Assembly: GCF_030285625.1 (NCBI RefSeq)
Contig: NZ_CP127294.1
Location: forward strand, 1,808,001-1,872,000
Length of the DNA stretch: 64,000 nt
DNA from: Amycolatopsis sp. 2-15
Lineage (GTDB): Bacteria; Actinomycetota; Actinomycetes; Mycobacteriales; Pseudonocardiaceae
Reading direction: 5' to 3'
In this document: positions 2,754-28,408 of the stretch, in pieces
Numbering within the stretch: position 1 is the stretch's first letter
Layout of the letters: every line of letters begins with the position of its first letter
The notes under the pieces: generated by a model
Told to the model about the DNA's origin: nothing
The model's database searches: none
What the model saw: the letters and a program-made list of their open reading frames with translations, nothing else
Made by a program: the position numbers and the translations under genes

Positions 2754-2791
2754 TTACTCGCCGGTAACTTCAGGATATTACCTACGAGTAA
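2754..2791. promoter_or_regulatory. double TTAC-N6-GTAA operator upstream of fadE5
   Basis: Two 14-bp sites in inverted orientation: TTACTCGCCGGTAA at 2754-2767 and TTACCTACGAGTAA at 2778-2791, whose reverse complement is TTACTCGTAGGTAA. Both fit TTACTNNNNGGTAA, and the whole block is symmetric about 2772.5. It lies where the fadE5 promoter is expected. A third copy, TTACTGATGGGTAA, precedes the EtfD-like gene at 28395. The form suits a TetR-type repressor dimer; which regulator binds is not known from this window. Confidence 0.7.
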
Positions 2792-2864
2792 CTGGAGCAA
2801 GCGATTCCGCTCTTCCAGGGGTGTGGATTCAGCCGAAAAACCGACATCGACCAGGAAGGCGACG

Positions 2865-3653
2865 TCAGGTAGTGCCGCGCACCACGGCGCGATCCGCGGG
2901 CACCGGGTTGTGGGCGTCGTCGGCGTGGGGCACGAGGATGCCGCTGCGGAACGCGATGGTCACAGCGTGCGTGCGATCGCGCGCGGACAGCTTGCGCAGG
3001 ATGCTCTTCACGTGCGTCCGGACGGTTTCGACGGAGAGGAACAACAGCTTCGCGATCGCCGAGTTCTCCAGGCCTTCGGCCACGAGCTGCAGCACCTGGT
3101 ACTCGCGGCGCGACAGCGGCATGGCGCCCTTCGGCTGGGTCAGGTGCTCCTCGGCCGGCGCCGCTCTGGGGGACGGCTGCCGTTTGGGTCGCGCGGTGAG
3201 CGCGGCCAGCGCCGGGTCGATGTAGCGCCGGTCGGTGTGCGCGCGCCGCACGGCTTCCGCCAGCCGCCGCGGGTCCACCGCCCGCGGCACGATCGCGTGC
3301 GCGCCCGCAGCGATGGCCGTGGCCAGGTACTGCTGCGTGCGGTTGACGTCGCGCACCAGCGTCACCAGCACCACGGCGGGGTCGCCGGAGTTGAGCAGCT
3401 TCGTGAGGTGGCAATGGGGGTCCAGCGCCGAATCGAGGATCACGACGTCGGGACGCACCTGCTCGCACAGCTGCATCGCGGCGTGGTGGCTCGCCGCCTG
3501 GCCCGCCCAGTGCAGTCCCGGCGTCCGGTGGACCATCGACGCGAGGCCCTCGCGGAAGATCGGGATGGGATCGACGACGGCCACCCCCAGGCTGCGGTTC
3601 GCGGTCGGTTGTCCGGGCACAGCCGGCGTTCGGTGGGGCTCGATGCCGCGCAT
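2865..3653 (-). CDS. LuxR-family response regulator with a degenerate receiver domain
   Basis: A 262-residue protein. Residues about 25-140 form a receiver-like domain: VAVVDPIPIFREGLASM, DVVILDS where phosphoacceptor Asp would sit, and AAGAHAIVPRAVDPRRLAEAV at the end. The C-terminal 65 residues are a LuxR/NarL HTH: LSRREYQVLQLVAEGLENSA followed by IAKLLFLSVETVRTHVKSIL. The acidic pocket is reduced (one D in VVDP instead of DD) and the usual Lys is not obvious, so phosphorylation is uncertain. No sensor kinase gene is adjacent. The start at 3653 is preceded by GGAGG; an upstream in-frame extension exists but is arginine-rich and unlikely. Target genes are unknown. Confidence 0.8.
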   Translation of the reverse strand: MRGIEPHRTPAVPGQPTANRSLGVAVVDPIPIFREGLASMVHRTPGLHWAGQAASHHAAMQLCEQVRPDVVILDSALDPHCHLTKLLNSGDPAVVLVTLVRDVNRTQQYLATAIAAGAHAIVPRAVDPRRLAEAVRRAHTDRRYIDPALAALTARPKRQPSPRAAPAEEHLTQPKGAMPLSRREYQVLQLVAEGLENSAIAKLLFLSVETVRTHVKSILRKLSARDRTHAVTIAFRSGILVPHADDAHNPVPADRAVVRGTT

Positions 3654-3947
3654 CTCGGGCCTCCGTCTTCCAGGTCGTTCCCGGGTCGCCGGACGTCCGC
3701 GCACGCCCCCCGGCGTGCCGTCCTGGCACCACCCGATCCCCCCTGCTGGGACCGGACAGGAATGACACCTTGTCCTTGATTCGACTCCTCCGGAAGGCGC
3801 TTGTGACGCGGTTTCCCCCTCATGGCCGTATCGGCCGGTTGCAGCAAACTCTCCGTAGAAAATCATCGTTGATCTGCAGCTTTTTGGCCCTGTACGACAG
3901 CGGGGGCTCGTCCGTTTGCTACTGAGGGTGTAGCCGAAAGATGGCCG

Positions 3948-4496
3948 CTACGTGACAACCCGTGCACGCAGCGCGGCGAACTCACTTGCCAGACCGGCGG
4001 GCGTCCAGTGGGCGTTGAGGCCGCTCGGGTTGGGCAGCACCCAGACGCCGGTCCCGCCGATCACGCGGTCCTGGGGGCCGACTTTCGCCTTCTTTTCGCC
4101 GAACGCGGTCCGGTACGCGGTGATGCCCAGCACAGCGAGCCAGCGAGGTTGGGCGTGAAGGACCTTCTCGACGAGCGTCTTGCCGCCTTCGCGCAGCTCG
4201 TCGTCCGTCAGCTCGTCCGCCCGGGCGGTGGTCCGCGCGACGACGTTGGTGATCCCGAGGCGCAGATCGAGGAGCTCGTGCTGCTCACTCGGGTCCAACA
4301 GCCGCGGCGTGAAGCCCCCGGCATGCAGCGCCGGCCAGAAGCGGTTGCCGGGCCTCGCGAAGTGCAGCCCCAGCGCGCCCGAGTAGAGCCCGGGGTTGAT
4401 CCCGCAGAACAGCACGTCCAACCCGGGCGCGATGACGTCGGGAATGACCTTGTCCTGCGCGGCGGCGAGCTGGTCTTTGGTGGGTCGGATGGGCAT
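3948..4496 (-). CDS. mug: G/U mismatch-specific DNA glycosylase (Mug)
   Basis: A 182-residue uracil/thymine DNA glycosylase of family 2, which removes U or T opposite G and ethenocytosine to start base-excision repair. Motif A is LFCGINPGLYSG near residue 30, with the GINPG containing the catalytic-site Asn, and motif B is NPSGLNAHW near residue 157. HFARPGNRFWPALHAGGFTP is the typical linker segment. The first ATG with family-like spacing is at 4496; a start at 4532 would overlap the divergent methyltransferase gene. Divergent promoters must lie in the 28 bp between the two genes or inside their starts. Confidence 0.92.
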   Translation of the reverse strand: MPIRPTKDQLAAAQDKVIPDVIAPGLDVLFCGINPGLYSGALGLHFARPGNRFWPALHAGGFTPRLLDPSEQHELLDLRLGITNVVARTTARADELTDDELREGGKTLVEKVLHAQPRWLAVLGITAYRTAFGEKKAKVGPQDRVIGGTGVWVLPNPSGLNAHWTPAGLASEFAALRARVVT

Positions 4497-4524
4497 GGGT
4501 CCAGTTTCGGGCACGCTGTCAGGC

Positions 4525-5190
4525 ATGACCACGACGCCCGACGGTTGCTCCGTGGACCTCTACCTGCGGCTGCCCGCGGCCGGCGAACCGGAGATCGTCC
4601 ACGGCGCCGGGCCCGCCGCCGCATCGATCCTGGAGCTGGGCAGCGGCTGCGGGCGCGTGACGCACCCGTTGCTGGAGCTCGGCCACGCCGTAGTCGCCGT
4701 CGACGAATCGCCGGAGATGCTCGCCCACGTCCGCGGTGCCGAAACGGTGTCCGCGCGCATCGGCGACCTGCGGCTGGACCGCGAGTTCGACGTCGTCCTG
4801 CTCGGCAGCCACCTGGTCAACACGGCCGATCCGGCGGAGTGCCACGCGCTGCTCGCGGCGGCTCGGCGCCACCTCGCGCCCGGGGGCCGGCTGCTCGTCG
4901 AATGGCACCCGCCGGAGTGGTTCGACCACGTGACCGACGGGCCGGGCGGGCTCCTCGGTGACATCGCCGTTTCGCTGCACGACGTCGTCCGCGAGGGCGA
5001 TCTGCTGTCCGCGACGGTGCGCTACCGAGCCGCCGAACGGGTGTGGCACCAAGAATTCACCTGTCGCCGGCTGGGTTTTCCGGAGCTGTCCGAGGCGCTG
5101 ACCTCGGCCGATCTGACCTTCGGCGAGTGGCTGACCGTTGACCGGGATTGGTTCTCGGCACGCGGGGTAGCGGATCAGGTACCGATCTAG
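4525..5190 (+). CDS. class I SAM-dependent methyltransferase
   Basis: A 221-residue Rossmann methyltransferase. Motif I is ILELGSGCGRVTHPLLELG near residues 34-52, motif II contains VVAVDESPEML with the acidic residue that binds the ribose, and a motif IV equivalent is FDVVLLGSHLVN. The C-terminal half is beta-rich (VWHQEFTCRRLGFPELSEAL) and probably covers the substrate. The substrate cannot be read from the sequence. The gene is divergent from mug with only 28 bp between the start codons. Confidence 0.8.
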   Translation: MTTTPDGCSVDLYLRLPAAGEPEIVHGAGPAAASILELGSGCGRVTHPLLELGHAVVAVDESPEMLAHVRGAETVSARIGDLRLDREFDVVLLGSHLVNTADPAECHALLAAARRHLAPGGRLLVEWHPPEWFDHVTDGPGGLLGDIAVSLHDVVREGDLLSATVRYRAAERVWHQEFTCRRLGFPELSEALTSADLTFGEWLTVDRDWFSARGVADQVPI

Positions 5191-5235
5191 GTAGCCTGTG
5201 TGATCTCTCGCACAACGTCGTAGGGAGGAGCCCGC

Positions 5236-5412
5236 GTGCAGCTTTGGGTTGTCCTCGCACTGGTGGCCCTCATTCTGGCAGCCGCCTCGCTGATCGTGGT
5301 TCTGGAAGACCGGCGCGCCGCCAAGCGGGCGGCGCTGAGGCGCAAGGCGCGGCTAGCGCGTCTGGGCGAAGTCGATCCGCTCGCGCCCGGCCGGCTGAGC
5401 GTGGATCGCTGA
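5236..5412 (+). CDS. small single-pass membrane protein (58 aa)
   Basis: A GTG-started frame behind an excellent GGGAGGAG site. It encodes MQLWVVLALVALILAAASLI, a hydrophobic helix, then a strongly basic tail (VVLEDRRAAKRAALRRKARL) and ends GRLSVDR. The layout predicts an N-out/C-in membrane peptide with a cytoplasmic basic helix. Its last 60 bases overlap the 3' end of the convergent VanZ gene, which argues for caution, but the ribosome site and helix/basic pattern support translation. Function unknown. Confidence 0.6.
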   Translation: MQLWVVLALVALILAAASLIVVLEDRRAAKRAALRRKARLARLGEVDPLAPGRLSVDR

Positions 5413-5994
5413 AGGGATTCCGCGCAGGGCGAGCAGCAGGGCGCCGAAGAGCCAGCCGAGGCCGGCGCCGAAGGTGTTGGTCATGAGGTCGTCGACGTCG
5501 AAGATGCGGTAGACGAACGGCGCCGTCCCGAAGTTTGCGGTGAGCTGCGTGATCTCGATGGCCAGTGACACCGTCGCGCCCACGGCCAGCGCGCCGACGA
5601 GGCCGCGGCGCCACAGGATGCGGGCGAAGATCCCGAGCGGCACGAAGAGCAGCACGTTGAGCGCGGCCTGCTGGAACGTCTGCGTGCTGAACCAGTGCGC
5701 CGCCGAAAGTCCGTGCTTCACCAGCTCGGTGTGGATGTCGGCGATCCACTGGAACGGCCGCAGCTGCACCGTCTGCTCGAGGCGCCGGCCGTTCGCGCTC
5801 GGCAGCGGCAGGAAGACGACCGCGAGCGCCATGCACGCGTAGAAGACGACCGCCGCCGAGGTCACCAGGCCGCGCAGCCGCGGGCGGCCGTAGCGCGCCA
5901 GCTGCAGCACCAGCTGCGGGACGAGCAGCGTGCCCCACACCGCGAGGAATCCGATGAGCCCGTACTGCAGGGCCGTGACCTGTGCGTTCGTCAT
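5353..5994 (-). CDS. VanZ family membrane protein
   Basis: A 213-residue membrane protein with about five helices. The VanZ core is visible: FQWIADIHTELVKHGLSAAH, then NVLLFVPLGIFARIL, ISLAIEITQLTANF and the acidic segment FDVDDLMTNTFGAGLGWLFG. The pattern N-x-x-x-F-x-P-x-G, S-x-x-x-E-x-x-Q and D-x-x-D-x-x-x-N-x-x-G defines the family. VanZ proteins are associated with teicoplanin resistance in some Gram-positives, but most chromosomal copies are of unknown role. The start at ATG 5994 is preferred because the upstream extension is basic and non-hydrophobic. Confidence 0.88.
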   Translation of the reverse strand: MTNAQVTALQYGLIGFLAVWGTLLVPQLVLQLARYGRPRLRGLVTSAAVVFYACMALAVVFLPLPSANGRRLEQTVQLRPFQWIADIHTELVKHGLSAAHWFSTQTFQQAALNVLLFVPLGIFARILWRRGLVGALAVGATVSLAIEITQLTANFGTAPFVYRIFDVDDLMTNTFGAGLGWLFGALLLALRGIPSAIHAQPAGRERIDFAQTR

Positions 5995-6085
5995 GCCGAG
6001 AACGTTATGGATCTTGGGGGTCACGCCACTTCGGTCGAAGAGCCGGACGGAATCCGGCCGGGTCGGCCATCTGGCCGAGGGCCGC

Positions 6086-6217
6086 TTAAGCCGATCGGTC
6101 AGGCTTCTCGTCGCGCTTCTCATCCTCGGCGCGCTCCGACCGCCACGCCGCGAAGACCGTGCCGCCGACGAGCAGGGCGACGACCACGATCACGGTCAGG
6201 ACGATCTGCAGTTCCAC
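6086..6217 (-). CDS. small single-pass membrane protein (43 aa)
   Basis: A GTG start follows GGGGAGCC. The peptide begins MELQIVLTVIVVVALLVGGT and continues VFAAWRSERAEDEKRDEKPD, i.e. one hydrophobic helix followed by a highly charged cytoplasmic tail. It resembles the many unnamed 40-60 residue membrane peptides of actinomycetes. The longer in-frame extension upstream reads through serine/proline-rich, non-conserved sequence and is not believed. Function unknown. Confidence 0.5.
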   Translation of the reverse strand: MELQIVLTVIVVVALLVGGTVFAAWRSERAEDEKRDEKPDRSA

Positions 6218-6437
6218 AGTGGCTCCCCGGGGTCCGGCCGGTTGGTCGCTGCCTGAAGGCTGCGCGTTACGCCGAACGGCGCGCTGGGCGCGCGGGTGCT
6301 GCTGGGCCGCAGCGAAAACGCCGGATGACATTTGCCCATCACCATCCTTTTTCCTCTGGTGAGGTCCGTCGGCGTTGGGCAGACTGCACCGCCGTGTGCC
6401 CGTTCCAGGGGACGGCGGGCGCGAAATCGGAGGAAAC

Positions 6438-8126
6438 ATGAGGCTCTTCACCCGGCTCGCGGTCACCGCCGCGGCCGCACTGGCCACTGTGGCCGTTACG
6501 AGCGTGCCGGCGTCGGCCGCGCAGACCACGGACGTTCGGATCATCACGCTGAACGACCTGCACGGCAACCTCGAGCCGCCGGCGGGTTCGGCCGGCAAGG
6601 TGTTCATGTCCGACGGGACCAGTGTGGACGCGGGCGGCGCGGCGTACGTGGCGACGCACGTGAAGCAGCTCGAGTCGCAGGTGCGCAACTCGATGGTGCT
6701 CTCGGCGGGCGACAACGTGGGCGCGTCGCCGGTGATCTCGGCGCTGTTCCACGACGAGCCGACCATCGATTTCCTCAACGAGCTGGGTGTGAAGGCCTCC
6801 GTGGTCGGCAACCACGAGCTCGACGAGGGTTACCAGGAACTGCTGCGCATGCAGTTCGGCGGCTGCAACAAGACCGACGGCTGCCAGTTCCGCCCGACGT
6901 ACCAGGGCGCGAACTTCCCGATCCTCGGGTCCAATGTGTACTTCACGAACGGTCTGCCCGCGCTGCTGCCGTTCTCGGTGCAGTTCTCCGGCGGCGTGCC
7001 GATCGGCATCATCGGCGCCACGCTGAAGGACCTGCCCTCGGTCGTCACGCCCGACGCCATCAAGGGCCTCAAGTTCGGCGACGAGGCGCAGGCCATCAAC
7101 CGCACCGCGAACCTGCTCGACCTGCTGGGCATCAAGGCCCAGGTCGTGCTGCTGCACCAGGGCGACGAGACGCTGCCCGGCTCCGGTCCGAACGACTGCA
7201 AGGTGGCGCCGGGCGGCGAGGCCGACGTCATCGCAAAGAACGTGAGCCCGAAGGTCGACGCGATCTTCACCGGCCACAGCCACCAGCAGTACAACTGCGT
7301 GATCAACGACCCCGCGGGCCAGCCGCGGCCGGTGATCCAGGGCGCGTCGTTCGGCCGGCTGCTGTCGGTAGTGGACCTGAAGGTCGACCTGCGCACGCGC
7401 GACGTCATCCGGGCGCAGACCAAGGCGCACAACGAGATCGTGACCCGCGACGTGACGCCGGACCCGGCCGTCACCAAGCTGGTGGACGAGGCCAAGACCA
7501 AGTCGGGCCCGATCGCCAACAAGCAGGTCGGCACCATCACCGCGGACCTCACCGCGGCCGGCGCGCCCTCGGGTGAGTCGACGATGGGCGACGTGATCGC
7601 CGACGCGCAGCTCGAAGGCACCAAGTCCAACAACGCGGTCGTCGCCATCACCAACCCCGGCGGCATCCGCGCGGACCTGAACTACGCGTCTTCGCCCAAC
7701 GGCGAGGGCGACGGCGTGGTCACCTACGGCGAAGCGTTCACCGTGCAGCCGTTCGCGAACATCATGCAGACGATCACGCTCACCGGCGCGAACCTGAAGA
7801 ACGTGCTGGAGCAGCAATGGGGCCAGCCGGGCGGCACCAAGATCCTGCAGATCTCGAGCAGCCTGCACTACACCTACTCGGCCTCGGCGCCGATCGGCTC
7901 GCGCATCTCGAACATCACCGTGAACGGCACGCCGGTCGACCCGGCCGCGACGTTCCGCGTGTCGGTGAACAACTTCCTCGCCGCGGGCGGCGACGGCTTC
8001 ACCGAATTCACGAAGGGCACCGACCTCGCGGGCGGTCCCGTGGACCTCGACGCGCTGATCGCCTACCTCGGCGCGCACCCGGGCGTCACCCCGCCGCCGG
8101 CGGACCGGATCACGATGGTTCCGTAG
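6438..8126 (+). CDS. secreted 5'-nucleotidase / 2',3'-cyclic phosphodiesterase family metallophosphatase
   Basis: A 562-residue exported enzyme. Signal peptide residues 1-29 (MRLFTRLAVTAAAALATVAV, then ASAAQ). The metallophosphatase domain, residues about 33-330, has the two-metal ligands NDLHGN, SAGDNVGAS, GNHELDEG and GHSHQQYN. The C-terminal 5'-nucleotidase domain, about 370-530, contains NPGGIRADLNYA, YGEAFTVQPFANIMQTITLT and NNFLAAGGDGF, which form the nucleoside pocket. There is no LPXTG or membrane anchor, so it should be free outside the cell, where it would scavenge phosphate or nucleosides. CGGAGGAAAC precedes the ATG, and a strong terminator follows. Confidence 0.93.
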   Translation: MRLFTRLAVTAAAALATVAVTSVPASAAQTTDVRIITLNDLHGNLEPPAGSAGKVFMSDGTSVDAGGAAYVATHVKQLESQVRNSMVLSAGDNVGASPVISALFHDEPTIDFLNELGVKASVVGNHELDEGYQELLRMQFGGCNKTDGCQFRPTYQGANFPILGSNVYFTNGLPALLPFSVQFSGGVPIGIIGATLKDLPSVVTPDAIKGLKFGDEAQAINRTANLLDLLGIKAQVVLLHQGDETLPGSGPNDCKVAPGGEADVIAKNVSPKVDAIFTGHSHQQYNCVINDPAGQPRPVIQGASFGRLLSVVDLKVDLRTRDVIRAQTKAHNEIVTRDVTPDPAVTKLVDEAKTKSGPIANKQVGTITADLTAAGAPSGESTMGDVIADAQLEGTKSNNAVVAITNPGGIRADLNYASSPNGEGDGVVTYGEAFTVQPFANIMQTITLTGANLKNVLEQQWGQPGGTKILQISSSLHYTYSASAPIGSRISNITVNGTPVDPAATFRVSVNNFLAAGGDGFTEFTKGTDLAGGPVDLDALIAYLGAHPGVTPPPADRITMVP

Positions 8127-8140
8127 CACGGCCTCGACGG

Positions 8141-8186
8141 AGCCCCGCCCCTCGCTCATTCGCCGAGGGGCGGGGCTCTCGTTTTT
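8141..8186 (+). terminator. Rho-independent terminator of the 5'-nucleotidase gene
   Basis: A perfect 14-bp stem (arms 8141-8154 and 8164-8177, 9-base loop) is followed by five T at 8182-8186. Confidence 0.9.
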
Positions 8187-8224
8187 CCAAGCTTTCGACG
8201 GGCCGCCGGTGCACCATGGGACCC

Positions 8225-8548
8225 ATGACGACCTGGGAAGACGTGGTGGCACTCGCGGCGGAGCTGCCGGAGACCGAGGAGTCCACCTGGTACCGCACAC
8301 CCGCGCTGAAGGTCGCGGGCAAGGGCTTCGCCCGCCTGCGCAGCGAAGCCGAGGGCGGCGTGGTCCTGTTCTGCGGCCTGGACGAGAAAGAAGCCCTCCT
8401 CGCGTCCGGCGACCCGGCGTACTTCACCACGCCGCACTACGACGGCCACGGCTCGATCCTGGTCGACCTGGAGCGGGCGGATCCGGTGCAGCTGAAGGAA
8501 CTTCTGCTGGAATCGTGGCGGCGCAAGGCCCCGCGCAAACTGCTGTGA
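8225..8548 (+). CDS. MmcQ/YjbR family protein
   Basis: A 107-residue protein: MTTWEDVVALAAELPETEES, WYRTPALKVAGKGFARLRSE, VVLFCGLDEKEALLASGDPA and LLLESWRRKAPRKLL. The pattern E-x-P-x-x-x-x-x, P-x-(F/L)-K-V-x-G-K-x-F and a terminal (S/A)-W-x-x-x-A-P-x-x-L defines the MmcQ/YjbR (CyaY-like fold) family, annotated as DNA-binding but without a proven task. An alternative ATG lies three codons upstream. The end abuts the convergent GNAT gene by one base. Confidence 0.85.
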   Translation: MTTWEDVVALAAELPETEESTWYRTPALKVAGKGFARLRSEAEGGVVLFCGLDEKEALLASGDPAYFTTPHYDGHGSILVDLERADPVQLKELLLESWRRKAPRKLL

Positions 8549-8549
8549 C

Positions 8550-9080
8550 TCAGTCGACGAGTTCGGGTTCCAGCAGGCTCATCAGGTACATGTCGTAATA
8601 CTTCCCGTCACTGCCGCGGAAGCATTCGCGGTGCCGGCCGTCCTCGACGAAGCCGACCTTGCGATAGACGTGGCGCGCGCGTTCGTTGTCGGCGACGACC
8701 CACAGGGCGATGAGGTGCAGGCGCATCACGTTGAAGCCGTAGCGGCACATCAGCCGCATGGCCTCGGTGCCGTAACCGCCGTTCCAGTGGTCCTTCTCGC
8801 CGATGTAGATGTCCAGCTCGGCGCGGCCCGTCTCGGGTTCGGCGTCGCGCAGGTCGATGACGCCGATCAGCTCGCCCGACGTCACCGACTCGATGCCCAG
8901 GACCACGTGCGAGTACGTGTTGACCGTGCGTTCCTCGCAGCGCTTGCGCACCTGGTCCAGCGAACGCGGGTGCGAGTTGTTCATCCACTGCCCGACCTCC
9001 GGGTCGTGGATCCACCGGTACAGCGACTCCGCGTCCGACGTCTCCAGTGCCCGCAGCCGCACCAGCTTGCCCGTGAGCAT
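8550..9080 (-). CDS. GNAT N-acetyltransferase, RimJ/RimL type
   Basis: A 176-residue acetyltransferase. It opens with LTGKLVRLRALETSDAESLY, the usual RimJ/RimL start, followed by IGVIDLRDAEPETGRAELDI and the acetyl-CoA loop YIGEKDHWNGGYGTEAMRLM, in which the Q/R-x-x-G-x-G/A motif appears as W-N-G-G-Y-G-T. ALWVVADNERARHVYRKVGF is motif B with the conserved N-x-x-(A/S)-x-x-x-Y-x-K-x-G-F. The target (protein N-terminus, antibiotic or metabolite) cannot be told. It is 9 bp downstream of a co-directional deazaflavin oxidoreductase gene and probably co-transcribed with it. Confidence 0.85.
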   Translation of the reverse strand: MLTGKLVRLRALETSDAESLYRWIHDPEVGQWMNNSHPRSLDQVRKRCEERTVNTYSHVVLGIESVTSGELIGVIDLRDAEPETGRAELDIYIGEKDHWNGGYGTEAMRLMCRYGFNVMRLHLIALWVVADNERARHVYRKVGFVEDGRHRECFRGSDGKYYDMYLMSLLEPELVD

Positions 9081-9089
9081 CGCTCCCCC

Positions 9090-9467
9090 TCACTCCCGCC
9101 GCAGCAGCAGGAAGTCCTCGACCCCGACGAGCCCGAGGAACTGGCGCACCCCGGGCGGCATCGGACGGCGGGACCCATCATGCATGAGCCGTGGATCACT
9201 GACGCGCCATTTTCGCCCGCGCGTGACGAGGTCCGCATGGCCCGCGGCCAGCACGTTCTTGACCCAGTCGGTGTCCGGGCCGTAGGTGAGGGCGACAACG
9301 AAGCCTTCGTCGGTGCGGAAGACGTTCAGCGGAGTGCGGAACTCTTTGCCGGACCGGCGGCCCTTGTGCACGACGACGCCGAAGCCGGGCAGCCACCCGG
9401 CGAACGGTCCCGTGACGCGGTTGGTCACCACGCGGTTGAAGTGGGCGAGGCGTTCTGGCAGCACCAT
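9090..9467 (-). CDS. F420-dependent (Ddn-like) nitroreductase family protein
   Basis: A 125-residue split-barrel protein: FNRVVTNRVTGPFAGWLPGF, GVVVHKGRRSGKEFRTPLNV, FVVALTYGPDTDWVKNVLAA and GHADLVTRGRKWRVSDPRL. The G-R-(R/K)-S-G-x-x-x-x-T-P-(L/V) motif and the YG-x-x-x-x-W-V-x-N-(V/L)-x-A segment are diagnostic of the deazaflavin-dependent nitroreductase (Ddn/DUF385) family of actinobacteria. These bind F420 and reduce quinones or other hydrophobic compounds. ATG at 9467 fits the family start. Confidence 0.88.
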   Translation of the reverse strand: MVLPERLAHFNRVVTNRVTGPFAGWLPGFGVVVHKGRRSGKEFRTPLNVFRTDEGFVVALTYGPDTDWVKNVLAAGHADLVTRGRKWRVSDPRLMHDGSRRPMPPGVRQFLGLVGVEDFLLLRRE

Positions 9468-9581
9468 CCGGCCAGGGTAATCCAACGTCCGTGGAATTAG
9501 CGCGTTTTCGGCCCGGTGCGAGGCCGGTTCGCACGTCTGGTGGGATGTTCGCGAACGCCGGCACGACGCGGGGAGAAGAAC

Positions 9582-10232
9582 ATGTCGAACGACTGGCCGC
9601 TGCGACAGGACCCGGAGTCGCCCGTGATCTTCGCGCGGGCGTTGCTCGAGGACCCCTCGCAGCTCGCGTTCGTGGTCCTCGACGATGACGACGACTGGTT
9701 CATCAGCGACGGCGCCGAGTTCGACGAGGACATGGACGTCAACCGCGAGCAGTTCGGCGCGGTCTCGCTGCGCGAAGCCGTCGAGCTCATCCCGCAGCTC
9801 ACGGCGCTGGCGTCGCTGCCCACCGGCATGGCGGCCGACTGGGACCCGGACCGCGAGGCGTGGCTGCTGAGCTCCGTCGCCGACTCGGACGACGAGGCCG
9901 AGGACCGCGAGATCCGCGACGCTCGCATCGCCGCGTGGCAGCACTCGGGCTCGCCGGTAGACGAGGTGCAACTTTCGACCGGGCTCACCGAGATCGTGGC
10001 CGGCGGCGACGCGCCCGTTCGCGCGGTGCGCCAGGTCGTGCGCGAGGGTGACGGCACGTGGCTCTTCGTGGGCTTCGAGGTGCCCGAAGCCGAGGACTTC
10101 GAGGTCGAGGGCCTGGAGCTGGAGCACGTGGTGAGCCTGTACCCGGACGTCGTGACGGTGCTGCAGGCCGCGCCCGGCCAGGTCTTCGACCGCGCGGAGC
10201 CGGGTGCCGAGTGGGAGCTCGTCGAGGGCTGA
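9582..10232 (+). CDS. conserved hypothetical acidic protein
   Basis: A 216-residue, strongly acidic soluble protein behind GGGGAGAAGAAC. The first half contains QLAFVVLDDDDDWFISDGAE and LREAVELIPQLTALASLPTG; the second half begins after the acidic linker SSVADSDDEAEDREIRDARI and ends VFDRAEPGAEWELVEG. No catalytic motif or membrane segment is evident. The DDDDDWFISDG segment suggests an SMI1/KNR4- or immunity-like beta fold, but this is only an impression. It is followed by a separate unit encoding a YCII protein and an ECF sigma factor. Confidence 0.7.
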   Translation: MSNDWPLRQDPESPVIFARALLEDPSQLAFVVLDDDDDWFISDGAEFDEDMDVNREQFGAVSLREAVELIPQLTALASLPTGMAADWDPDREAWLLSSVADSDDEAEDREIRDARIAAWQHSGSPVDEVQLSTGLTEIVAGGDAPVRAVRQVVREGDGTWLFVGFEVPEAEDFEVEGLELEHVVSLYPDVVTVLQAAPGQVFDRAEPGAEWELVEG

Positions 10233-10333
10233 AAGTTTTTCCGCGGCGATTGTCCTGGCGCGGTAGGGCCTGTTCGTCCTTAGAGTGTTAGCCGGCGAAC
10301 GGCGCCGGTCCGGACACACTTGCAGGAGCAGCC

Positions 10334-10681
10334 ATGCCTACCTATGCCGCGATCATCTACTCCGCCGACGTGGACCCGACGCAGCCCGAAGCCGCCGCGA
10401 TGATGAAGGACTACAACGAGTTCGGCGCGGCCGCGGCCGCCGTCATCCGTGGTGGCAGGGCGCTGTACCCGACGGCGACCGCCACCACCGTCCGCGTGAC
10501 CGGCGGCAAGGGCGGCGACATCGTGACCAGCGACGGCCCGTACGCCGAGACGAAGGAAGCCCTCACCGGCTTCTACCTCATCGAATGCGCCGACCTCGAC
10601 GAAGCCGTGAAGGTCGCCGCGCAGATCCCGGGCGCGTGGGACGGCGCCGTCGAGGTGCGCCCGGTCGTCGAGTTCTCGTGA
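10334..10681 (+). CDS. YCII-related (DGPF-type) protein paired with an ECF42 sigma factor
   Basis: A 115-residue ferredoxin-like alpha/beta protein. It starts MPTYAAIIYSAD, has the hallmark VTSDGPYAETKEALTGFYLI (D-G-P-(F/Y)-x-E-(S/T)-K-E) and ends IPGAWDGAVEVRPVVEF. DGPF proteins sit next to ECF42 sigma factors across actinobacteria and are thought to be part of the regulon or the signal path. Its TGA overlaps the GTG of the following sigma gene (GTGA), so the two are translationally coupled. Confidence 0.92.
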   Translation: MPTYAAIIYSADVDPTQPEAAAMMKDYNEFGAAAAAVIRGGRALYPTATATTVRVTGGKGGDIVTSDGPYAETKEALTGFYLIECADLDEAVKVAAQIPGAWDGAVEVRPVVEFS

Positions 10682-11871: not shown

Positions 11872-11984
11872 GGCGGTCTTGACACGTTCGCGGCCCAGCG
11901 CGTTCGATGGTGACACGCCCTGCGGCCGGTGAGCGCGCCCGCGCCCAGGGCGCCCAAACTTCCCGCCCGCAGAGGGGGCCCACG

Positions 11985-12377: not shown

Positions 12378-12381
12378 GTGT

Positions 12382-12657
12382 CTATTGTGGATCGATTCTC
12401 CTGGTGAGCTCGACCCACGCCAGACCCCACCCACTGGACACGGCGATTTCCTCGAGCGCTCCGGTGGGGAGGCAGAGTTCGGCGAACCGTTGCTCTGCCT
12501 GGGCGTCGCCCCTCTTGATGCGTCGCTTGAGCTCTTCCAGCTCGGCGGCGGCGTCGTCCGTGGAGCGGTAGCTGCTCCAGGTGACGTCGTGCTCGCCGGT
12601 GCGGAGGATGTTCAGCAGGCCGGTGATGACTTCGCAGAGCTGCTCGCCACGCGTCAT
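12382..12657 (-). CDS. hypothetical protein (91 aa)
   Basis: A small soluble protein, MTRGEQLCEVITGLLNILRT, with a helical acidic/basic centre (TDDAAAELEELKRRIKRGDA) and a C-terminus GWGLAWVELTRRIDPQ. I do not recognise a family. It lies 8 bp from the end of the MFS gene behind it on the same strand and could be the distal gene of that unit. It converges on the SnoaL-like gene with only 4 bp between stops. Confidence 0.55.
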   Translation of the reverse strand: MTRGEQLCEVITGLLNILRTGEHDVTWSSYRSTDDAAAELEELKRRIKRGDAQAEQRFAELCLPTGALEEIAVSSGWGLAWVELTRRIDPQ

Positions 12658-12665
12658 GGGTGGGA

Positions 12666-22236: not shown

Positions 22237-22379
22237 GTCTCCCGGCCTGCGCGGACGCATCACCGCACGCCGAGATCAGCTTGCGCCTGCACCAGGAAAA
22301 CGCCGTCGGCCAAAGATCTTTCCCAGGCTTGATCAAATAAAGCGCTGGGCCTTTCGGGGGTAACGGTCGTAATCGGTTC

Positions 22380-23174
22380 GTGATAGTTTCCTCGCCCGTG
22401 TCCCCCATTGGTGCGCGTGGTCGAGTGGTTTTGGTGTCACTGAGTGTTCTTCTCGGCGGTTTCTCCGCCGCTGGAGGGACAGTGTGGCTCCACGACAGAC
22501 CCAGCGTGGCGACGCTCGGTAGCACCGCCGCAGGTCAGTCCGATCCGCTGTCCGGCGTGCCGCCGGTCGATCCGTACGCGAAGCAGCCGTCGTCGTCCAC
22601 TCCCGGCGGCATCCCGGCCCCGGACACGGGCGGCACGAGTGGCACCCCGACGCCCGACTCGACCGCCCCCACGACATCGACTTCAGCCGGCCCCGACGCG
22701 ACGTCGACCACCGCGTCTGGCACCCCGAGCTCCGGCACCCCCGCGCCGCCCAAGCCGGATCCGAAGACCACCCCGGCGAAGACCACCCCGGCCCGCACCA
22801 CGAACCCGTCGATGGCCGGCCAGGTCGTGGACCTCGTGAACGACGAGCGCGCCAAGGCCGGCTGCGATCCCGTCGCCGAGGAGCCGCACCTCGACCAGGC
22901 CGCGCAGGACCACAGCGACGACATGTCGGCCCGCAACTACTTCTCGCACGACACGCCCGAAGGCAAGCACTTCGACGAGCGCATCCGCGACGCCGGCTAC
23001 AGCAAGCCGGGCGCCGAGAACATCGCGAAGGGCGCGACGAGCGCGAAGCAGGTGATGCAGCTGTGGATGAACTCCAGCGGCCACCGCGCGAACATCCTCA
23101 ACTGCTCGCTGACCAAGCTCGGCGTCGGCGTGACCACCGCCGGCTGGTACTGGACGCAGGACTTCGGGTACTGA
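22380..23174 (+). CDS. secreted/membrane-anchored CAP (SCP-like) domain protein
   Basis: A 264-residue protein with an N-terminal hydrophobic segment (VVLVSLSVLLGGFSAAGGTV), then a 100-residue Pro/Thr/Ser-rich linker (PDSTAPTTSTSAGPDATSTT and similar) and a C-terminal CAP domain from about residue 145: MAGQVVDLVNDERAKAGCDP, HSDDMSARNYFSHDTPEGK, AGAENIAKGATSAKQVM-type segment and SSGHRANILNCSLTKLGVGV. The CAP cavity residues His (HSDDM), Glu (ENIAKG) and His (GHR) are present. Bacterial CAP proteins act in the envelope or outside; the ligand is unknown. GTG 22380 or GTG 22398 could be the start. It follows the DUF11 gene and may share its surface location. Confidence 0.85.
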   Translation: MIVSSPVSPIGARGRVVLVSLSVLLGGFSAAGGTVWLHDRPSVATLGSTAAGQSDPLSGVPPVDPYAKQPSSSTPGGIPAPDTGGTSGTPTPDSTAPTTSTSAGPDATSTTASGTPSSGTPAPPKPDPKTTPAKTTPARTTNPSMAGQVVDLVNDERAKAGCDPVAEEPHLDQAAQDHSDDMSARNYFSHDTPEGKHFDERIRDAGYSKPGAENIAKGATSAKQVMQLWMNSSGHRANILNCSLTKLGVGVTTAGWYWTQDFGY

Positions 23175-23183
23175 GCCGAAAAC

Positions 23184-24188
23184 CTACAGCGAATCCTCGA
23201 TCGGCCGCGTGCTCAAGTCGCCGTAGCGCGCCAGCACCGCGGCCCGCAGGTTCGGATCCGACCGCGGCACCGGCTCGATGAAGACCTCGGTGATGTCGTT
23301 GAACCCCTCGGTCAGCTCCCCCGCGATCCGCACGCAGGCGAACTCGACGTCGGCCGCCCCCAGCGAATCGTCGAAGTCCACGCGGGCGCACACGAGCACC
23401 TGGTCGGTGCCCATGAGCATCGTCTGCAGGTCCACCACCGCCTCGATTTCCGGGGCCGCCACGAGGTGGTCACGCACCCCGCGCACGATCCGCGGATCCG
23501 CCTGCCGGCCCACGAGCAGGCCCCGGTTGGTACGGCCCAGCAGGTACGCGACGCACGCGAGCAGCAGGCCGATGAGGATCGACGCGATGCCGTCCCACAC
23601 CGACGAGCCCGTGAGCTGGTGCAACCCGATGCCGGCGAACGCGAGCAGCAGACCGATCAACGCGGCCGAGTCCTCGAACAGCACGGTCTTCGGCGCGGGG
23701 TCGTCGATCATGCGCAGGTAGGTGAAGAACGAACGCCGCTCCTGCCGGGCCTCCTTGCGCACCTGCCGGATCGCCTGCAGCCACGAAGTGCCTTCGAGGA
23801 GGAAGGCGATCCCCAGCACGGCGTAACCGACGATCGGGCTCGTCTGGTCCGTGCTCTCGCCGAACACGGTGGTGAAGCCCTCGTACAGCGCGAACATCGC
23901 GCCCGAGGCGAAGATCGAGACGGCCGCCAGCAGCGACCAGAAGTAGCGCTCCTTGCCGTAGCCGAACGGGTGGAGCCGGTCGGCCGGGCGCTCCGAACGT
24001 TTCAAGGCCGTGAGGAGCAGGACCTCGGTGATGGTGTCGGCGAAGGAGTGCGCCGCCTCCGACAGCATCGCGCCCGAGCCGGTGATGATCCCGGCGATCA
24101 GCTTCAGGATGGCGATGGCCAGGTTCACGCCGCCGGCCAGCAGCACCGTGAGGGTGCTCTCGCCGCCCGATTCTTCTTGCTCGCTCAC
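23184..24188 (-). CDS. cation diffusion facilitator (CDF) transporter
   Basis: A 334-residue divalent-metal/proton antiporter with six helices. Helix II holds the metal site GAMLSEAAHSFADTITEVLL (H-x-x-x-D) and helix V holds LFEDSAALIGLLLAFAGIGL (D-x-x-x), giving a His-Asp/Asp site as in zinc-selective members. RLHPFGYGKERYFWSLLAAV after helix II is typical of the ZnT9-like branch. The cytoplasmic C-terminal domain, from residue 215, is the ferredoxin-like dimer domain (IVRGVRDHLVAAPEIEAVVD). Substrate is probably Zn or Mn/Fe. It converges on the CAP gene with 9 bp between stops. Confidence 0.92.
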   Translation of the reverse strand: MSEQEESGGESTLTVLLAGGVNLAIAILKLIAGIITGSGAMLSEAAHSFADTITEVLLLTALKRSERPADRLHPFGYGKERYFWSLLAAVSIFASGAMFALYEGFTTVFGESTDQTSPIVGYAVLGIAFLLEGTSWLQAIRQVRKEARQERRSFFTYLRMIDDPAPKTVLFEDSAALIGLLLAFAGIGLHQLTGSSVWDGIASILIGLLLACVAYLLGRTNRGLLVGRQADPRIVRGVRDHLVAAPEIEAVVDLQTMLMGTDQVLVCARVDFDDSLGAADVEFACVRIAGELTEGFNDITEVFIEPVPRSDPNLRAAVLARYGDLSTRPIEDSL

Positions 24189-24216
24189 GCGCAGAAGACT
24201 AGCCGCGCGGACGGGG

Positions 24217-24747
24217 TCAGAGTCGGTTGAGACCCGAAAGAACGCGCTCCATCAGCGCGATCGCCGGGCGGCCGTCCTCTTTGCGTTGCGGCGCGTGGAT
24301 CGTCACGAGGCCGAGCTCGGCCAGGTCGTCGAGCAGGACCCGCGCGACGCCGAGCGGAACGCTCAGCGTCGCGGCCACCTCGGCCACCGACCGCGGGTAC
24401 AGGCACAGCGACCGCACGATCCGGAACTCGCCCTTCACCTGCGGCGAGTTCCACCGCGGGTCGCCGGCGTTGGCCTTCACGAGCGCTTCGACGGCGAGGT
24501 TGCGGCGGGAGTGCGTGCGGCCGCGGGTGAGGACGTACGGCCGGACGAGCGTTCGCGGGCCGGGGACCGGCGACGGATCGGAGACCCAGCCGTCGCCCAC
24601 CACGGGCTCGCCCGCGAACTCCTCGGGCACCTCGTTCGGCCAAACGGGTTCGGGGGTCCGGCCCCGTGCAACGCTTACTCGCCCGGAAGGCGGAAAGGGT
24701 GTGCCCGAGTGGCCGGTGTAACCAGGTCCGCTGTACCCGTTCACCAC
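24217..24747 (-). CDS. DUF742 family protein
   Basis: A 176-residue protein with a Gly/Pro-rich first half and a C-terminal DUF742 winged-helix-like domain: TLVRPYVLTRGRTHSRRNLA, RSLCLYPRSVAEVAATLSVP, LGVARVLLDDLAELGLVTIH. DUF742 proteins usually sit in conservons with a nitrate/sensor kinase, a Roadblock/LC7 protein and a small GTPase. None of these is present here, so this is an orphan copy. GTG 24747 is preceded by AGGGGG; further upstream codons are open but lack such a site. Confidence 0.85.
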   Translation of the reverse strand: MVNGYSGPGYTGHSGTPFPPSGRVSVARGRTPEPVWPNEVPEEFAGEPVVGDGWVSDPSPVPGPRTLVRPYVLTRGRTHSRRNLAVEALVKANAGDPRWNSPQVKGEFRIVRSLCLYPRSVAEVAATLSVPLGVARVLLDDLAELGLVTIHAPQRKEDGRPAIALMERVLSGLNRL

Positions 24748-24930
24748 GTCGCGCCCCCTTATATCGGTAGCCGAATTCGCCTCCCGCAAGCGGCGTCGGT
24801 CGCGAGGAACCGTAGATTACGCCCGTTGTCCTGTCTGTCATCGGCAATGTGACGAAGCCGGACCAGAGGTGCAGAAAATGTGCACGGTAAACGTTTTCGC
24901 GACCATTCCGGTACGCTCGTACCTCTTGTG

Positions 24931-25895
24931 TCAAACGGTTACCGGAATTCGCCGACGGGCCGTGATCGTGAGTACCGAAAGCGTCGCGGCCACGAGGACC
25001 ACCTGTTCGATGAGCGCCACCGGGTTGCCCGCCGTCACTAGACCGACCCAGCAGTACGTGACAATCGCGCCTGCTGCCAGGGAAAACGTGGGCGGACGGT
25101 AGTGCACGGCGTAGGCGACCACGGCCGCTTCGAGCGCCAGCATCAACACAACTGTGCCCCACGAATGGAGCAGCGCGGTCTTGTCCACCAGGTGGAACAG
25201 CGTGCTCGCCCCCAGCCCGACGGCGAACCCGGCCCACGCGTTGCCCCCGGCGACCGGCGGACGGACGGGCAGCCGAAAGGCGAACACGACCAGCACGACG
25301 GCCACCACGGCGGCGCCGAGCAGCTGTCCGGGCGCGGCGAGGAATGCCGGCGTTCCCATCATGCGAGACACCAGGAACGTGCCCGTCGCACCGACGAGCA
25401 GCGCCCCGGTCCACGCCACCGTGCCCGGCCGGCGCAGCCACGGCTCGCGCCCGAAGAACGCCTCCGCGATCGCGATCGGCGCCGCGATGCTCCAGACCAC
25501 GTGCAGCGTCAGCACGAAAACCGTCCACTGGCCACCGATGCCGAGCCCGGCCCGTGCGCGGGGCTCAGCAGGTCGAGGCCGAGGTAGTGCGGGTTGAACA
25601 ACGTTTGCGTGAGCAGGCCTTCTTCGACGACGCCGAAGGCCAGCGCGAGCGTGAGGATCGTCGGCCAGCCACGGCCGTGGCGGCGCGCGAGCTCACGGAC
25701 CAACACCGCGGCCGAGCCGTAGAACGCGACGAACATCGCGAACATGCCGAGCTGTTGCCCGGGCTCGGGCGGCCCCGCGAGGTACTGGTCACCGAGGAGG
25801 AACTCGGCGACGAACGGGAAGACCAAGGCGAGTGCGGCGACCGCGGACTTGCGAAATGGCATGAAGTGATCGTGTCGCTGTGCGAGCATTCGCAC
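24931..25895 (-). pseudogene. frameshifted polytopic membrane protein gene
   Basis: Two abutting frames look like one protein. The first part (25895 to about 25540) reads VAALALVFPFVAEFLLGDQY, GVVEEGLLTQTLFNPHYLG and LDLLSPAHGPG, then runs into a stop in unrelated sequence. The second part, in another frame, reads LGIGGQWTVFVLTLHVVWSI, AAPIAIAEAFFGREPWLRRP and continues through several membrane helices to 24931. The splice PAHGPG/LGIGGQW is seamless after a one-base deletion (or two-base insertion) near 25545 in the GC-rich tract. The intact product would have about 320 residues and 8 helices. Family function unknown; it could be a sequencing error as well as real decay. Confidence 0.7.
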
Positions 25896-25947
25896 ACGGG
25901 CCGTAAATCACGACTGTCCCCATGACAAATGTCGGGGCCGGGAACGA

Positions 25948-25995
25948 CTGAACGCCCCTTTCGCGACCGTTGTTGATCGTGAAAGGGGCGTTCAG
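25948..25995. terminator. long hairpin downstream of the Fe-S oxidoreductase gene
   Basis: Perfect 15-bp arms CTGAACGCCCCTTTC (25948-25962) and complement (25981-25995) flank an 18-base loop, 16 bp after the oxidoreductase stop. There is no T-run on either side, so it may be a terminator, an RNA-stabilising hairpin, or a copy of a dispersed palindromic element. Confidence 0.5.
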
Positions 25996-26011
25996 CGCAG
26001 TTTGATACGGG

Positions 26012-28312
26012 CTATTTGTCCTCGTCCGGCAACGGGGTGCCGGTCGCCGTCTCGTCGGTCGGCACGTCGGGCTTGCTCGTGAGGTCGGCGTCCGACTCGC
26101 CCTCGAGCGAAGGCGCGCCCGCCGCCACCAGCGCCGGCTCCGGCTTGCGCTTCACGGCCGTGAGCAGCAGCTGAGCGACGTCCACGACCTCGACGCGCTC
26201 GCTCGCGAGGCCGTCGCTCTGCCGCGCGGTGACGCCGTCGGTGAGCATCACGCGGCAGAACGGGCAGCCCGTCGCGATCTTCGACGGCGCGGTGCCGAGC
26301 GCCTCGTCCACGCGCTCGACGTTGATCCGCTTGCCGATCTTCTCCTCCATCCACATCCGCGCACCGCCGGCACCGCAGCACATGGACCGGTCGCCGTGAC
26401 GCGGCATCTCGCGCAGCTTCGCGCCCGAAGCGCCGACGAGCTCACGCGGAGCGTCGTAGACCTTGTTGTGGCGGCCCAGGTAGCACGGGTCGTGGTAGGT
26501 GACGTCCTCCGCGACGGGCGCGACCGGCGTCAGGTACTTCTCGCGCACCAGGCGGTTGAGCAGCTGCGTGTGGTGCACGACGTCGAACTGGCCGCCCAGC
26601 TCCGGGTACTCGTTGGCCAGCGTGTTGAAGCAGTGGGCGCAGGTCACCACGACCTTGCGCGCCTTGCGCTCGCGGCCCTCGAACACCGAGTTCAGGACCT
26701 CGACGTTCTGCTGCGCCAGCATCTGGAACAGGAACTCGTTGCCCGCGCGGCGCGCCGGGTCACCGGTGCACGACTCCTCCGAGCCGAGCACGGTGTACTT
26801 CACGCCCGCGATGTGCAGCAGCTCGGCCACGGCGCGCGTGGTCTTCTTCGCGCGGTCCTCGAACGCGCCGGCGCAGCCGACCCAGAACAGGTACTCCGCG
26901 TCGCCCAGATCGCCGTCGAAGACGGGCACCTCGAAGTCGAGGTCCTCCGTCCACTGCAGACGGTCCTTGGCGTTCTGGCCCCACGGGTTGCCCTTGTTCT
27001 CCAGGTTCTTGAACATGCCGTTCAGCTCCGTGGGGAACGACGACTCGATCATCACCTGGTAGCGGCGCATGTCCACGATGTGATCCACGTGCTCGATGTC
27101 CACCGGGCACTGCTCGACGCAGGCACCGCAGCTGGTGCAGGACCACAGCATGTCCGGGTCGATCACGCCGCCGTCGTCGGCGCCGCCGATCAGCGGCCGC
27201 TCGGACTCGGCCAGCGCCAGCACGTCGATGCCCGCGTGGGGGTTGTCCCCGGTCAAGCCGATCTCGTCGCCGGCCATGTCGCGCTTGCCGCCGGCCAGCA
27301 GGTAGGGCGCCTTCGCGTACGCGTGGTCGCGCAGCTGTGTGATCAGCAGCTTCGGCGACAGCGGCTTGCCCGTGTTCCACGCGGGGCACTGCGACTGGCA
27401 GCGGCCGCACTCGGTGCAGGTGGAGAAGTCGAGCCAGCCCTTCCAGCTGAAGTCCTCGACCTTGCCGACGCCGAACGTGTCCTCGTCCGGATCGGCTTCC
27501 TCGAGGTCGAGCACCTTGCCCTTGCTCATCATCGGCTTCACCGCGCCGAGCGCGACGCCGCCGTCGTCCTCGCGCTTGAAGTAGATGTTGAAGAACGCGC
27601 TGAAGCGGTGCCACGCGATACCCATGGTCATCGTGCGGGCCACCACGATCAGCCACACCGTGGCGCTCATCAGCTTGACGAACGCGAACACCGACACGAG
27701 CGCGGCGCTCGACGGCAGCGCGTGCGACAGCGGGTTGGACACGAAGGCGGCCCAGGTCGGCGTCTCGTGCACGCCCATCGCGGCCTTCGCCGCGCGCACG
27801 CCGATGATGCCGATGCCCTCGATGATCACCACGGCCTCGACGAAGTAGGCCCACTTGAAGTTCGAGCCCGCGAAGCGCGACTGCCGGTCGGCGCGGCGCG
27901 GGTGGTTGGCCTGGCGGATGAGCACCAGGCCGATGCCGCCGACGATCGTGGCCACGCCGAGCAGCTCCATGAGCAGGCTCCACAGCGACCAGTCCTCGAG
28001 GACCGGCCAGCCCCACGTCGGCACGAACACCTCGCCGTAGGCCTCGAACAGCGCGAGCGACCCGATGAGGAAGCCCCACATCACCATCCAGTGCCAGGGC
28101 GCGACCTGCCGGAACTTCGCCATGCGCGTGTGCGCGGCGAACTCCTTGATCAACGTGCCGAGCCGCGGCATGAACGGTCCGTTGCGCGTCGGGTCGGGCT
28201 GGCCCAGCCGGATCACCCGCACGAAGCGGGCGATGGTGGCGATGAACAATCCCCAGGCGACGATGCCCAGGAGGACCGAGATCCCCCCGAGCGTCAGCTC
28301 TACAGCGCCCAT
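26012..28312 (-). CDS. membrane Fe-S oxidoreductase, EtfD-like (ETF:quinone electron transfer)
   Basis: A 766-residue protein. The N-terminal 280 residues hold about five helices (GGISVLLGIVAWGLFIATIA, VMWGFLIGSLALFEAYGEVF, ELLGVATIVGGIGLVLIRQA), a HdrE/NarI-like membrane domain. Then come two [4Fe-4S] motifs, CTECGRCQSQCPAWNTGK and CTSCGACVEQCPVDIEHVDH, and two CCG domains (CAHCFNTLANEYPELGG; CCGAGGARMWMEEK). Rv0338c of M. tuberculosis has this architecture; it is known as EtfD, which carries electrons from FadE-reduced ETF to menaquinone. By that comparison this gene should serve beta-oxidation. ATG 28312 follows GAAAGG. Its upstream operator matches that of fadE5 in this window. The Pro/Asp-rich C-tail is probably disordered. 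Confidence 0.88.
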   Translation of the reverse strand: MGAVELTLGGISVLLGIVAWGLFIATIARFVRVIRLGQPDPTRNGPFMPRLGTLIKEFAAHTRMAKFRQVAPWHWMVMWGFLIGSLALFEAYGEVFVPTWGWPVLEDWSLWSLLMELLGVATIVGGIGLVLIRQANHPRRADRQSRFAGSNFKWAYFVEAVVIIEGIGIIGVRAAKAAMGVHETPTWAAFVSNPLSHALPSSAALVSVFAFVKLMSATVWLIVVARTMTMGIAWHRFSAFFNIYFKREDDGGVALGAVKPMMSKGKVLDLEEADPDEDTFGVGKVEDFSWKGWLDFSTCTECGRCQSQCPAWNTGKPLSPKLLITQLRDHAYAKAPYLLAGGKRDMAGDEIGLTGDNPHAGIDVLALAESERPLIGGADDGGVIDPDMLWSCTSCGACVEQCPVDIEHVDHIVDMRRYQVMIESSFPTELNGMFKNLENKGNPWGQNAKDRLQWTEDLDFEVPVFDGDLGDAEYLFWVGCAGAFEDRAKKTTRAVAELLHIAGVKYTVLGSEESCTGDPARRAGNEFLFQMLAQQNVEVLNSVFEGRERKARKVVVTCAHCFNTLANEYPELGGQFDVVHHTQLLNRLVREKYLTPVAPVAEDVTYHDPCYLGRHNKVYDAPRELVGASGAKLREMPRHGDRSMCCGAGGARMWMEEKIGKRINVERVDEALGTAPSKIATGCPFCRVMLTDGVTARQSDGLASERVEVVDVAQLLLTAVKRKPEPALVAAGAPSLEGESDADLTSKPDVPTDETATGTPLPDEDK

Positions 28313-28394
28313 CGTCGGGTGCCTTTCGTCCGGTGTGGTGGTGCCGGTGCCTGTGCGCGGGTCACAGCCCCGGTGCCGAGCAGGGTAACGCTTC

Positions 28395-28408
28395 TTACTG
28401 ATGGGTAA
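28395..28408. promoter_or_regulatory. TTAC-N6-GTAA operator upstream of the EtfD-like gene
   Basis: TTACTGATGGGTAA lies 83-96 bp upstream of the ATG. It matches TTACTNNNNGGTAA exactly as do both sites before fadE5 (2754-2791), and the following base is C here and after both fadE5 sites read on the plus strand. Confidence 0.65.

Follow-up and report, generated by a model that had tools for sequence, protein, structure and literature searches.

Can two genes that lie far apart on one chromosome, coding for the entry enzyme and the membrane outlet of the electron path of fatty-acid oxidation, be governed by a common operator? This question is raised by a 64 kb window from Amycolatopsis sp. 2-15, the whole stretch of DNA analysed (positions 1,808,001-1,872,000 of its 10.05 Mb single-contig genome, here G000), which contains fadE5, coding for an acyl-CoA dehydrogenase, and a gene for an EtfD-like membrane iron-sulfur oxidoreductase. 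A sequence-only reading of this window had reported three copies of TTACTNNNNGGTAA in front of the two genes and proposed a shared operator for the entry of electrons through FadE5 and their exit through EtfD. The copies indeed lie at 2754-2767 (plus strand), 2778-2791 (minus strand) and 28395-28408 (plus strand), with no more in the window, against a mean of 0.01 in shuffled versions of it, none of the 100 shuffles reaching three copies; the looser core TACYNNNNRGTA picks out the same three places only. As judged from sequence, the three sites belong to a fatty-acid (acyl-CoA) oxidation regulon, because they are conserved at the fadE5 and EtfD-like promoters and because the operator marks a set of fad and etf genes. 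The features on which this assignment is based, namely the sites, their conservation, the promoter geometry, the gene set and the synteny, are directly observed, and these genes are probably switched together by a single fatty-acid sensor whose kind is partly known.

The identities proposed earlier for both genes are upheld by matches to solved structures. The open reading frame at 861-2747 on the minus strand matches solved FadE5 over its full length (PDB 6kse, E 5.8e-271, residues 15-628), and since alignment with the solved FadE5 chains begins at residue 15 of this longer frame, the ATG at 2705 is the likely true start, giving a protein of 614 aa (861-2705). Likewise, the open reading frame at 26012-28426 on the minus strand matches, over most of its length, the solved mycobacterial EtfD chain 9ojn (E 1.6e-229, residues 64-785), an entry named as EtfD in the available text of PMC13083937. 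Its likely start is the ATG at 28312 (26012-28312, 766 aa), in line with relatives that align from about residue 30-40. Measured from these likely start codons, the sites stand 49 and 73 nt upstream of fadE5 and 83 nt upstream of the EtfD-like gene. The EtfD proteins of Mycobacterium-like genomes are 52-54 % identical to the window protein, and several genomes of the family (e.g. G015, G008 and G003) have a second EtfD-like paralogue of 53-57 % identity to it. Either paralogue may be the strict orthologue of mycobacterial EtfD.

Conservation and geometry of the operators

At fadE5 the palindrome was followed through 71 loci from 71 other genomes, 29 and 19 of them from searches of the family and 23 from a search of the order, the latter being those that were new among the 30 best-scoring loci of 113 order genomes with a match. 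Nine of the 58 other family genomes with a match were left out of the count; G037 was among them, and it was dropped from the etfD set as well because its contig ends at the fadE5 match and its etfD stretch is incomplete. The core [CT]TACYNNNNRGTA[AG] is present between -250 and +60 of the start of the fadE5 match in every one of the 71 loci, and in the form TTACYNNNNRGTAA in 68 of them. Across the 269,727 bases of these loci, 133 core matches fall inside this promoter interval and none outside it, with no match to the reversed pattern. The motif of the sequence-only reading is a single version of a broader palindrome, so that the fixed orientation TTACT...GGTAA is not the rule. The random spread over coding DNA that would have spoken against the earlier proposal was not found.

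When the fadE5 promoters of the 71 loci are aligned on the operator, a conserved TTGCC, an operator, TATCCT and a second operator follow one another, with little information beyond them. The window promoter has the same order: a putative -35 box (TTGCTC, for the TTGCC consensus of its relatives; 2795-2800, minus strand), a spacer of 17 nt that wholly encloses the predicted operator 1 (TTACTCGTAGGTAA; 2778-2791, minus strand), a putative -10 box (TATCCT; 2772-2777, minus strand), and the predicted operator 2 (TTACTCGCCGGTAA; 2754-2767, plus strand), which is 24 bp from operator 1 and lies over the transcription start expected from the position of the -10 box. The positions of both boxes are conserved in the 71 loci. 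In 61 of these loci the distance between the two operators is 24 or 25 bp; nine have a single operator by the pattern used and one has another spacing.

The predicted operator of the EtfD-like gene (TTACTGATGGGTAA; 28395-28408, plus strand) is similarly persistent. The count here takes in 48 of the 57 other family genomes that had a match, and three of these 48 (G002, G031 and G036) hold paralogues of 54-55 % identity; 30 loci from other families of the order were also covered. The core is found in 45 of the 48 family loci (28/29 and 17/19) and in 20 of the 30 loci from other families, and the 329,894 bases of EtfD-like loci contain no core match elsewhere and none to the reversed pattern. All three misses in the family, and one of the ten in the order, have TACYNNNNRGTA with another outer base. 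Among nine Mycobacterium-like etfD loci, five have a doublet at 25 bp spacing and four have nothing recognisable. Thus, the earlier proposal of a common operator at entry and exit is strongly supported by conservation and promoter geometry, its repressor and the binding thereof still being predictions.

A wider set of fatty-acid genes

The sequence-only reading had further expected that such sites across the genome would mark a set rich in fad and etf genes, which holds for part of them. The strict pattern TTACYNNNNRGTAA has 12 places in the 10.05 Mb genome against five for its reversed form, and the looser YTACYNNNNRGTAR has 39 against 19, so several of these places are background. Six of the 12 strict sites stand at fadE5 (two), the EtfD-like gene, a thiolase-FadB pair (fadAB), an acyl-CoA dehydrogenase gene and a gene for a two-domain SDR protein that we read as acyl-CoA-reductase-like. 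The other six are at genes without a clear fatty-acid link, and some of these are surely background: three precede genes for phosphoglycerate mutase, aceE and a methyltransferase, one is at the 5' end of a LacI/periplasmic-binding-type gene, one is at an unrelated TetR/beta-lactamase pair, and the last (G000:C1:9054829, L010) consists of two abutting palindromes (GTTACTCTGGGTAATTACCGGCGGGTAAC) between a GNAT acetyltransferase gene and an unidentified 160-aa open reading frame. The looser pattern adds 27 places, among them a core site about 54 nt ahead of the likely start of etfB (ETF domain). Others are at the divergent thiolase/fabG4 promoter, the promoter of the adjacent TetR gene, another acyl-CoA dehydrogenase gene, and genes for an AMP-binding (acyl-CoA-synthetase-like) enzyme, a DUF4442 protein, an SDR and a 3-oxoacyl-ACP-synthase-III-like protein; no fatty-acid link was recognised at the remaining added places. 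Three stretches (G000:C1:4684634, 4692363 and 6018103; L391, L392 and L393) closely resemble one another (GGGCTTTTT/GGCTTTTTTGCTACC..GTAGGG..CGATTTA); the core of each is palindromic, and gene calling gave nothing in its vicinity. They are perhaps a small repeat family, and show no sign of a link to the regulon.

Two of the further promoters were traced in other genomes. The core lies upstream of the thiolase gene of fadAB in all 27 loci and at fabG4 in all 30, the own genome included in both counts; of 40 genomes searched, 27 gave a fadAB match and 37 a fabG4 match, 30 loci of the latter being examined. At one locus (L131) the fabG4 sites appear at -676 and -660 only through a contig end in the upstream flank, and by length would be at about -68 and -52. 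One genome of the same family, G005 (97 % complete), has neither fadE5 nor the EtfD-like gene at the thresholds used and keeps fabG4 with its site; the two absent genes were possibly lost jointly.

A stricter 16-base form, GTTACYNNNNRGTAAY, has between one and five places in each of six genomes, the reversed form having none in five of them and one in G002. The five places of a Mycobacterium-like genome are at etfBA, a GMC-type oxidoreductase gene, the EtfD gene (two) and fadE5, and GTTACYNNNNRGTAAY is also found at etfBA in two other genomes of that genome's family. Because they were found by the motif itself, the etfBA places are not an independent sample. Taken with the etfB site of the own genome, the GTTACYNNNNRGTAAY places mean that the dehydrogenase, the electron carrier and the membrane outlet are all marked. 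The strict operator before the GMC-type FAD oxidoreductase gene is at position 2235496 of the Mycobacterium-like G168 (L374).

The reader of the operator

Contrary to the earlier claim that the regulator is not encoded nearby, one TetR gene starts about 0.4 kb from the etfD operator, and another, coding for an FdmR-like TetR protein (G000:1770404-1771075), lies about 40 kb from the fadE5 operators, 37 kb to the left of the window. The FdmR-like protein is the best of 37 own-genome matches to the TetR protein encoded beside fabG4 in mycobacteria (40 %), and the mycobacterial protein in turn prefers it over the four own paralogues compared (112 versus at most 83 bits), making the two mutual best matches. 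Both have TetR_N and TetR_C_46 domains, and the nearest solved structure to the own protein is 3f1b (E 2.9e-39), followed by FasR 6o6p (E 2.1e-18). The thiolase, fabG4, MaoC (htdX) and TetR genes have the same order and strands as in mycobacteria (L117, L096), and core sites are present both in front of the own FdmR-like gene and at the fabG4 promoter. Within the family of the window, 24 of 30 promoters of FdmR-type TetR genes, the own one included, have the core. From the gene order of mycobacteria, we take the mycobacterial TetR gene beside fabG4 to be Rv0238, and the labels fadA2, fabG4 and htdX were assigned in the same way. In a sample of named mycobacteria, made up of the best 80 of at least 572 loci around FdmR-type TetR genes (1.51 Mb), all 122 core matches fall within 150 bp of the starts of fadA2 (thiolase), fabG4, fadE5 or fdmR, against six for the reversed pattern. 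By gene, the core is at fadE5 in 44 of 50 cases, fadA2 in 66 of 66, fabG4 in 68 of 71 and fdmR in 10 of 80, fadA2 and fabG4 sharing one site. In the available text of the papers concerned, Rv0238 is FdmR, a long-chain acyl-CoA-responsive repressor (PMC12403877), and FdmR is a key regulator of fadE5 (PMC9262360).

From these features we infer binding, repression, an acyl-CoA signal and FdmR as the reader, and put forward with moderate confidence the whole explanation, that of an old acyl-CoA oxidation regulon under a TetR repressor whose likeliest identity is the FdmR orthologue. The regulon would be old in the order and the three sites would be its operators, their palindrome TAC-Y-N4-R-GTA being recognised by a dimeric repressor of the TetR family. 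At fadE5, a first dimer would occupy the spacer that separates the -35 and -10 boxes and a second would cover the transcription start, a placement from whose geometry it follows that RNA polymerase would be excluded; at the EtfD-like gene a single dimer would bind just upstream. A build-up of long-chain acyl-CoA would release the repressor, and expression of the acyl-CoA dehydrogenase, etfBA, EtfD, fadAB and related genes would then increase in concert. The repressor would most likely be the FdmR orthologue, whose gene lies beside operators of its own 37 kb to the left of the window.

Several observations weigh against this account. The loci compared are related, so that their counts are not independent; a scan with a generic sigma-70 consensus gave no promoter, including at fadE5; and half of the strict sites of the own genome are the six without a clear fatty-acid link. 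The etfD core is absent in 10 of the 30 loci from other families of the order (nine if the looser TAC-N6-GTA is allowed), including four of the nine Mycobacterium-like ones. More pointedly, FdmR is not found wherever the operator is: G002 and G023 (97 % and 99 % complete) have no FdmR match at E 1e-25, and in the 120 and 140 kb around their fadE5 genes the TetR matches are weak (50 and 13 bits, where the own protein scores 353). Both genomes keep the two fadE5 sites, and G023 also the etfD site; FdmR therefore cannot be the only reader everywhere. Likewise, G005 keeps its fabG4 site and has no FdmR-type match in the flank examined. G028 and G004 also have no close FdmR, these being less clear cases, as the completeness of G028 is 86 % and a weak TetR match lies about 1.4 kb from fabG4 in G004. 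In addition, the base before TTAC tends to be G at the fadE5, etfD and fadAB sites and C at the fabG4 and fdmR sites, and such differing flanks may mean two readers.

Since the operator persists even where no FdmR was detected, a second reader is to be expected. One extension, speculative and less likely than not, is that FdmR and a FasR-type protein are sister repressors that both sense acyl-CoA and both read the single code TAC-Y-N4-R-GTA. From a time before the families of the order diverged, this code would have tied the path from acyl-CoA dehydrogenase through ETF to EtfD (fadE5, etfBA, etfD) to the genes of beta-oxidation, the sister keeping the circuit where FdmR was lost. If this were true, a shared acyl-CoA signal would set both fatty-acid synthesis and the disposal of electrons from the burning of fatty acids.

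An unlikely variant assigns the fadE5, etfD and etfBA sites to the FasR orthologue (G000:439575), an acyl-CoA-sensing paralogue, and leaves to FdmR only the sites next to its own gene; one protein would then couple fatty-acid synthesis and oxidation. The protein at G000:439575 is the strongest match to the NCBIfam FasR model among five own paralogues tested, but its 285.9 bits are below the cut-off of 330, only its matched stretch of 190 aa having been scored. FasR-type orthologues of 55-73 % identity occur in all five genomes tested, G002 and G023 among them. Core sites precede the FasR-type gene in G023 and G004, but there is none at that gene in the own genome, G002 or G168 and none next to that of G028. 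As to the DNA recognised, the oligonucleotide co-crystallised with the Mycobacterium tuberculosis FasR holds TAC-N6-GTA (PMC7382501) and such sites have been predicted upstream of fas (McGuire 2012, PMC3388012). In the available parts of the literature, however, FasR is described as an activator of fas-acpS, and the regulator named for fadE5 is FdmR rather than FasR (PMC9262360).

The TetR gene beside etfD (28815-29375, plus strand; TetR_C_31 type) offers another candidate, a local regulator whose sites would have spread to fadE5 and other fatty-acid genes, which we consider improbable. It is divergent from etfD. Of 29 other family etfD loci, 20 encode at the same place a protein 62-96 % identical to its product and one more a relative of 42 % identity; a relative of 49 % lies at etfD in G023, where no FdmR was detected. 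Nevertheless, none of the 30 etfD loci from other families, 20 of which have the operator, shows a match to it within flanks of 1.5 kb, and the etfD core persists in eight family loci with no match to it in the flank examined. The protein falls outside the FdmR/FasR group (5.2 bits with the FdmR profile). Its gene also adjoins that for a small multidrug resistance (SMR) type protein (28492-28818, plus strand), which stands between it and the etfD operator, and an SMR pump is a more usual kind of target for an adjoining TetR. Among the 120 relatives listed, of 400 in total, nearly all those named by organism are from genera such as Amycolatopsis, Saccharomonospora and Prauserella, presumably Pseudonocardiaceae, which we take to be the family of the window, and two are from Pendulispora.

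Three other regulators were tried and set aside: the consensus of MadR, TCTGTGxxxxxxxGT (PMC8872791), and the site of Rv0158, YGGCGGBGMCGGCGG, both differ from the present core in the available descriptions, and SCO3201 of Streptomyces is there given another site. Finally, that short palindromes merely happen to lie before these genes is scarcely credible, for even if the reversed patterns mark several genomic places as background, chance is already contradicted by the presence of the core in every fadE5 locus, its absence from the rest of the same loci in either form, and the conserved geometry.

Relation to known systems

The sites in the window fit the known family of TAC-N6-GTA operators, being palindromes of that form at fatty-acid genes. 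The motif of McGuire 2012 (PMC3388012) is likewise a palindromic TAC...GTA with 6 bp between its halves, occurring in clustered sites at fatty-acid genes. In its available section it is placed at Rv3229c, Rv3230c and fas (Rv2524c) and is not mentioned for fadE5, etfD or etfBA, whereas here the bases adjoining the core are Y and R (imposed by the search pattern) and the fadE5 sites are spaced by 24-25 bp. FasR of M. tuberculosis (PMC7382501) is an acyl-CoA-sensing TetR protein whose co-crystal DNA has TAC-N6-GTA; it differs in being an activator of fas-acpS, with no fatty-acid oxidation target named in the portion of the text available. The literal motif strings had no match in the literature searched.

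Closest is the FdmR (Rv0238) regulon of mycobacteria, which shares with the present system a TetR repressor of fatty-acid degradation with reported control of fadE5, the gene neighbourhood and, in named mycobacteria, the operator core both at fadE5 and at the promoter of thiolase/fabG4. The differences are that the present case is in another family, that operators are also found at etfD, etfBA and fadAB (the targets of FdmR being known here from citing papers only), and that the fadE5 sites persist in two genomes in which no FdmR was detected. The EtfBA-EtfD system of M. tuberculosis (Beites 2021, PMC8593149) has the same path from acyl-CoA dehydrogenase to ETF to EtfD, which is required for beta-oxidation, and EtfD and EtfBA are described there as the electron outlet for many redundant acyl-CoA dehydrogenases. 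In the available text of that paper, regulation of etfD is tied to IdeR/iron and peroxide and not to a fatty-acid repressor, and no fatty-acid regulator of etfD or etfBA stood out in the literature searched, a partial view that has the FdmR target paper outside it. The conserved operator predicts that acyl-CoA would switch the entry enzyme, the carrier and the outlet together across the order, and the result supplies a short testable motif, a list of targets and candidate regulators in soil actinobacteria. Set beside earlier work, the operator family, an FdmR regulon that includes fadE5, and the pathway of EtfBA and EtfD had been described before. The present analysis extends the picture to another family and adds that fadE5, etfBA and etfD are jointly marked, that the promoter geometry involves two operators, and that some genomes keep the sites with no FdmR detected.

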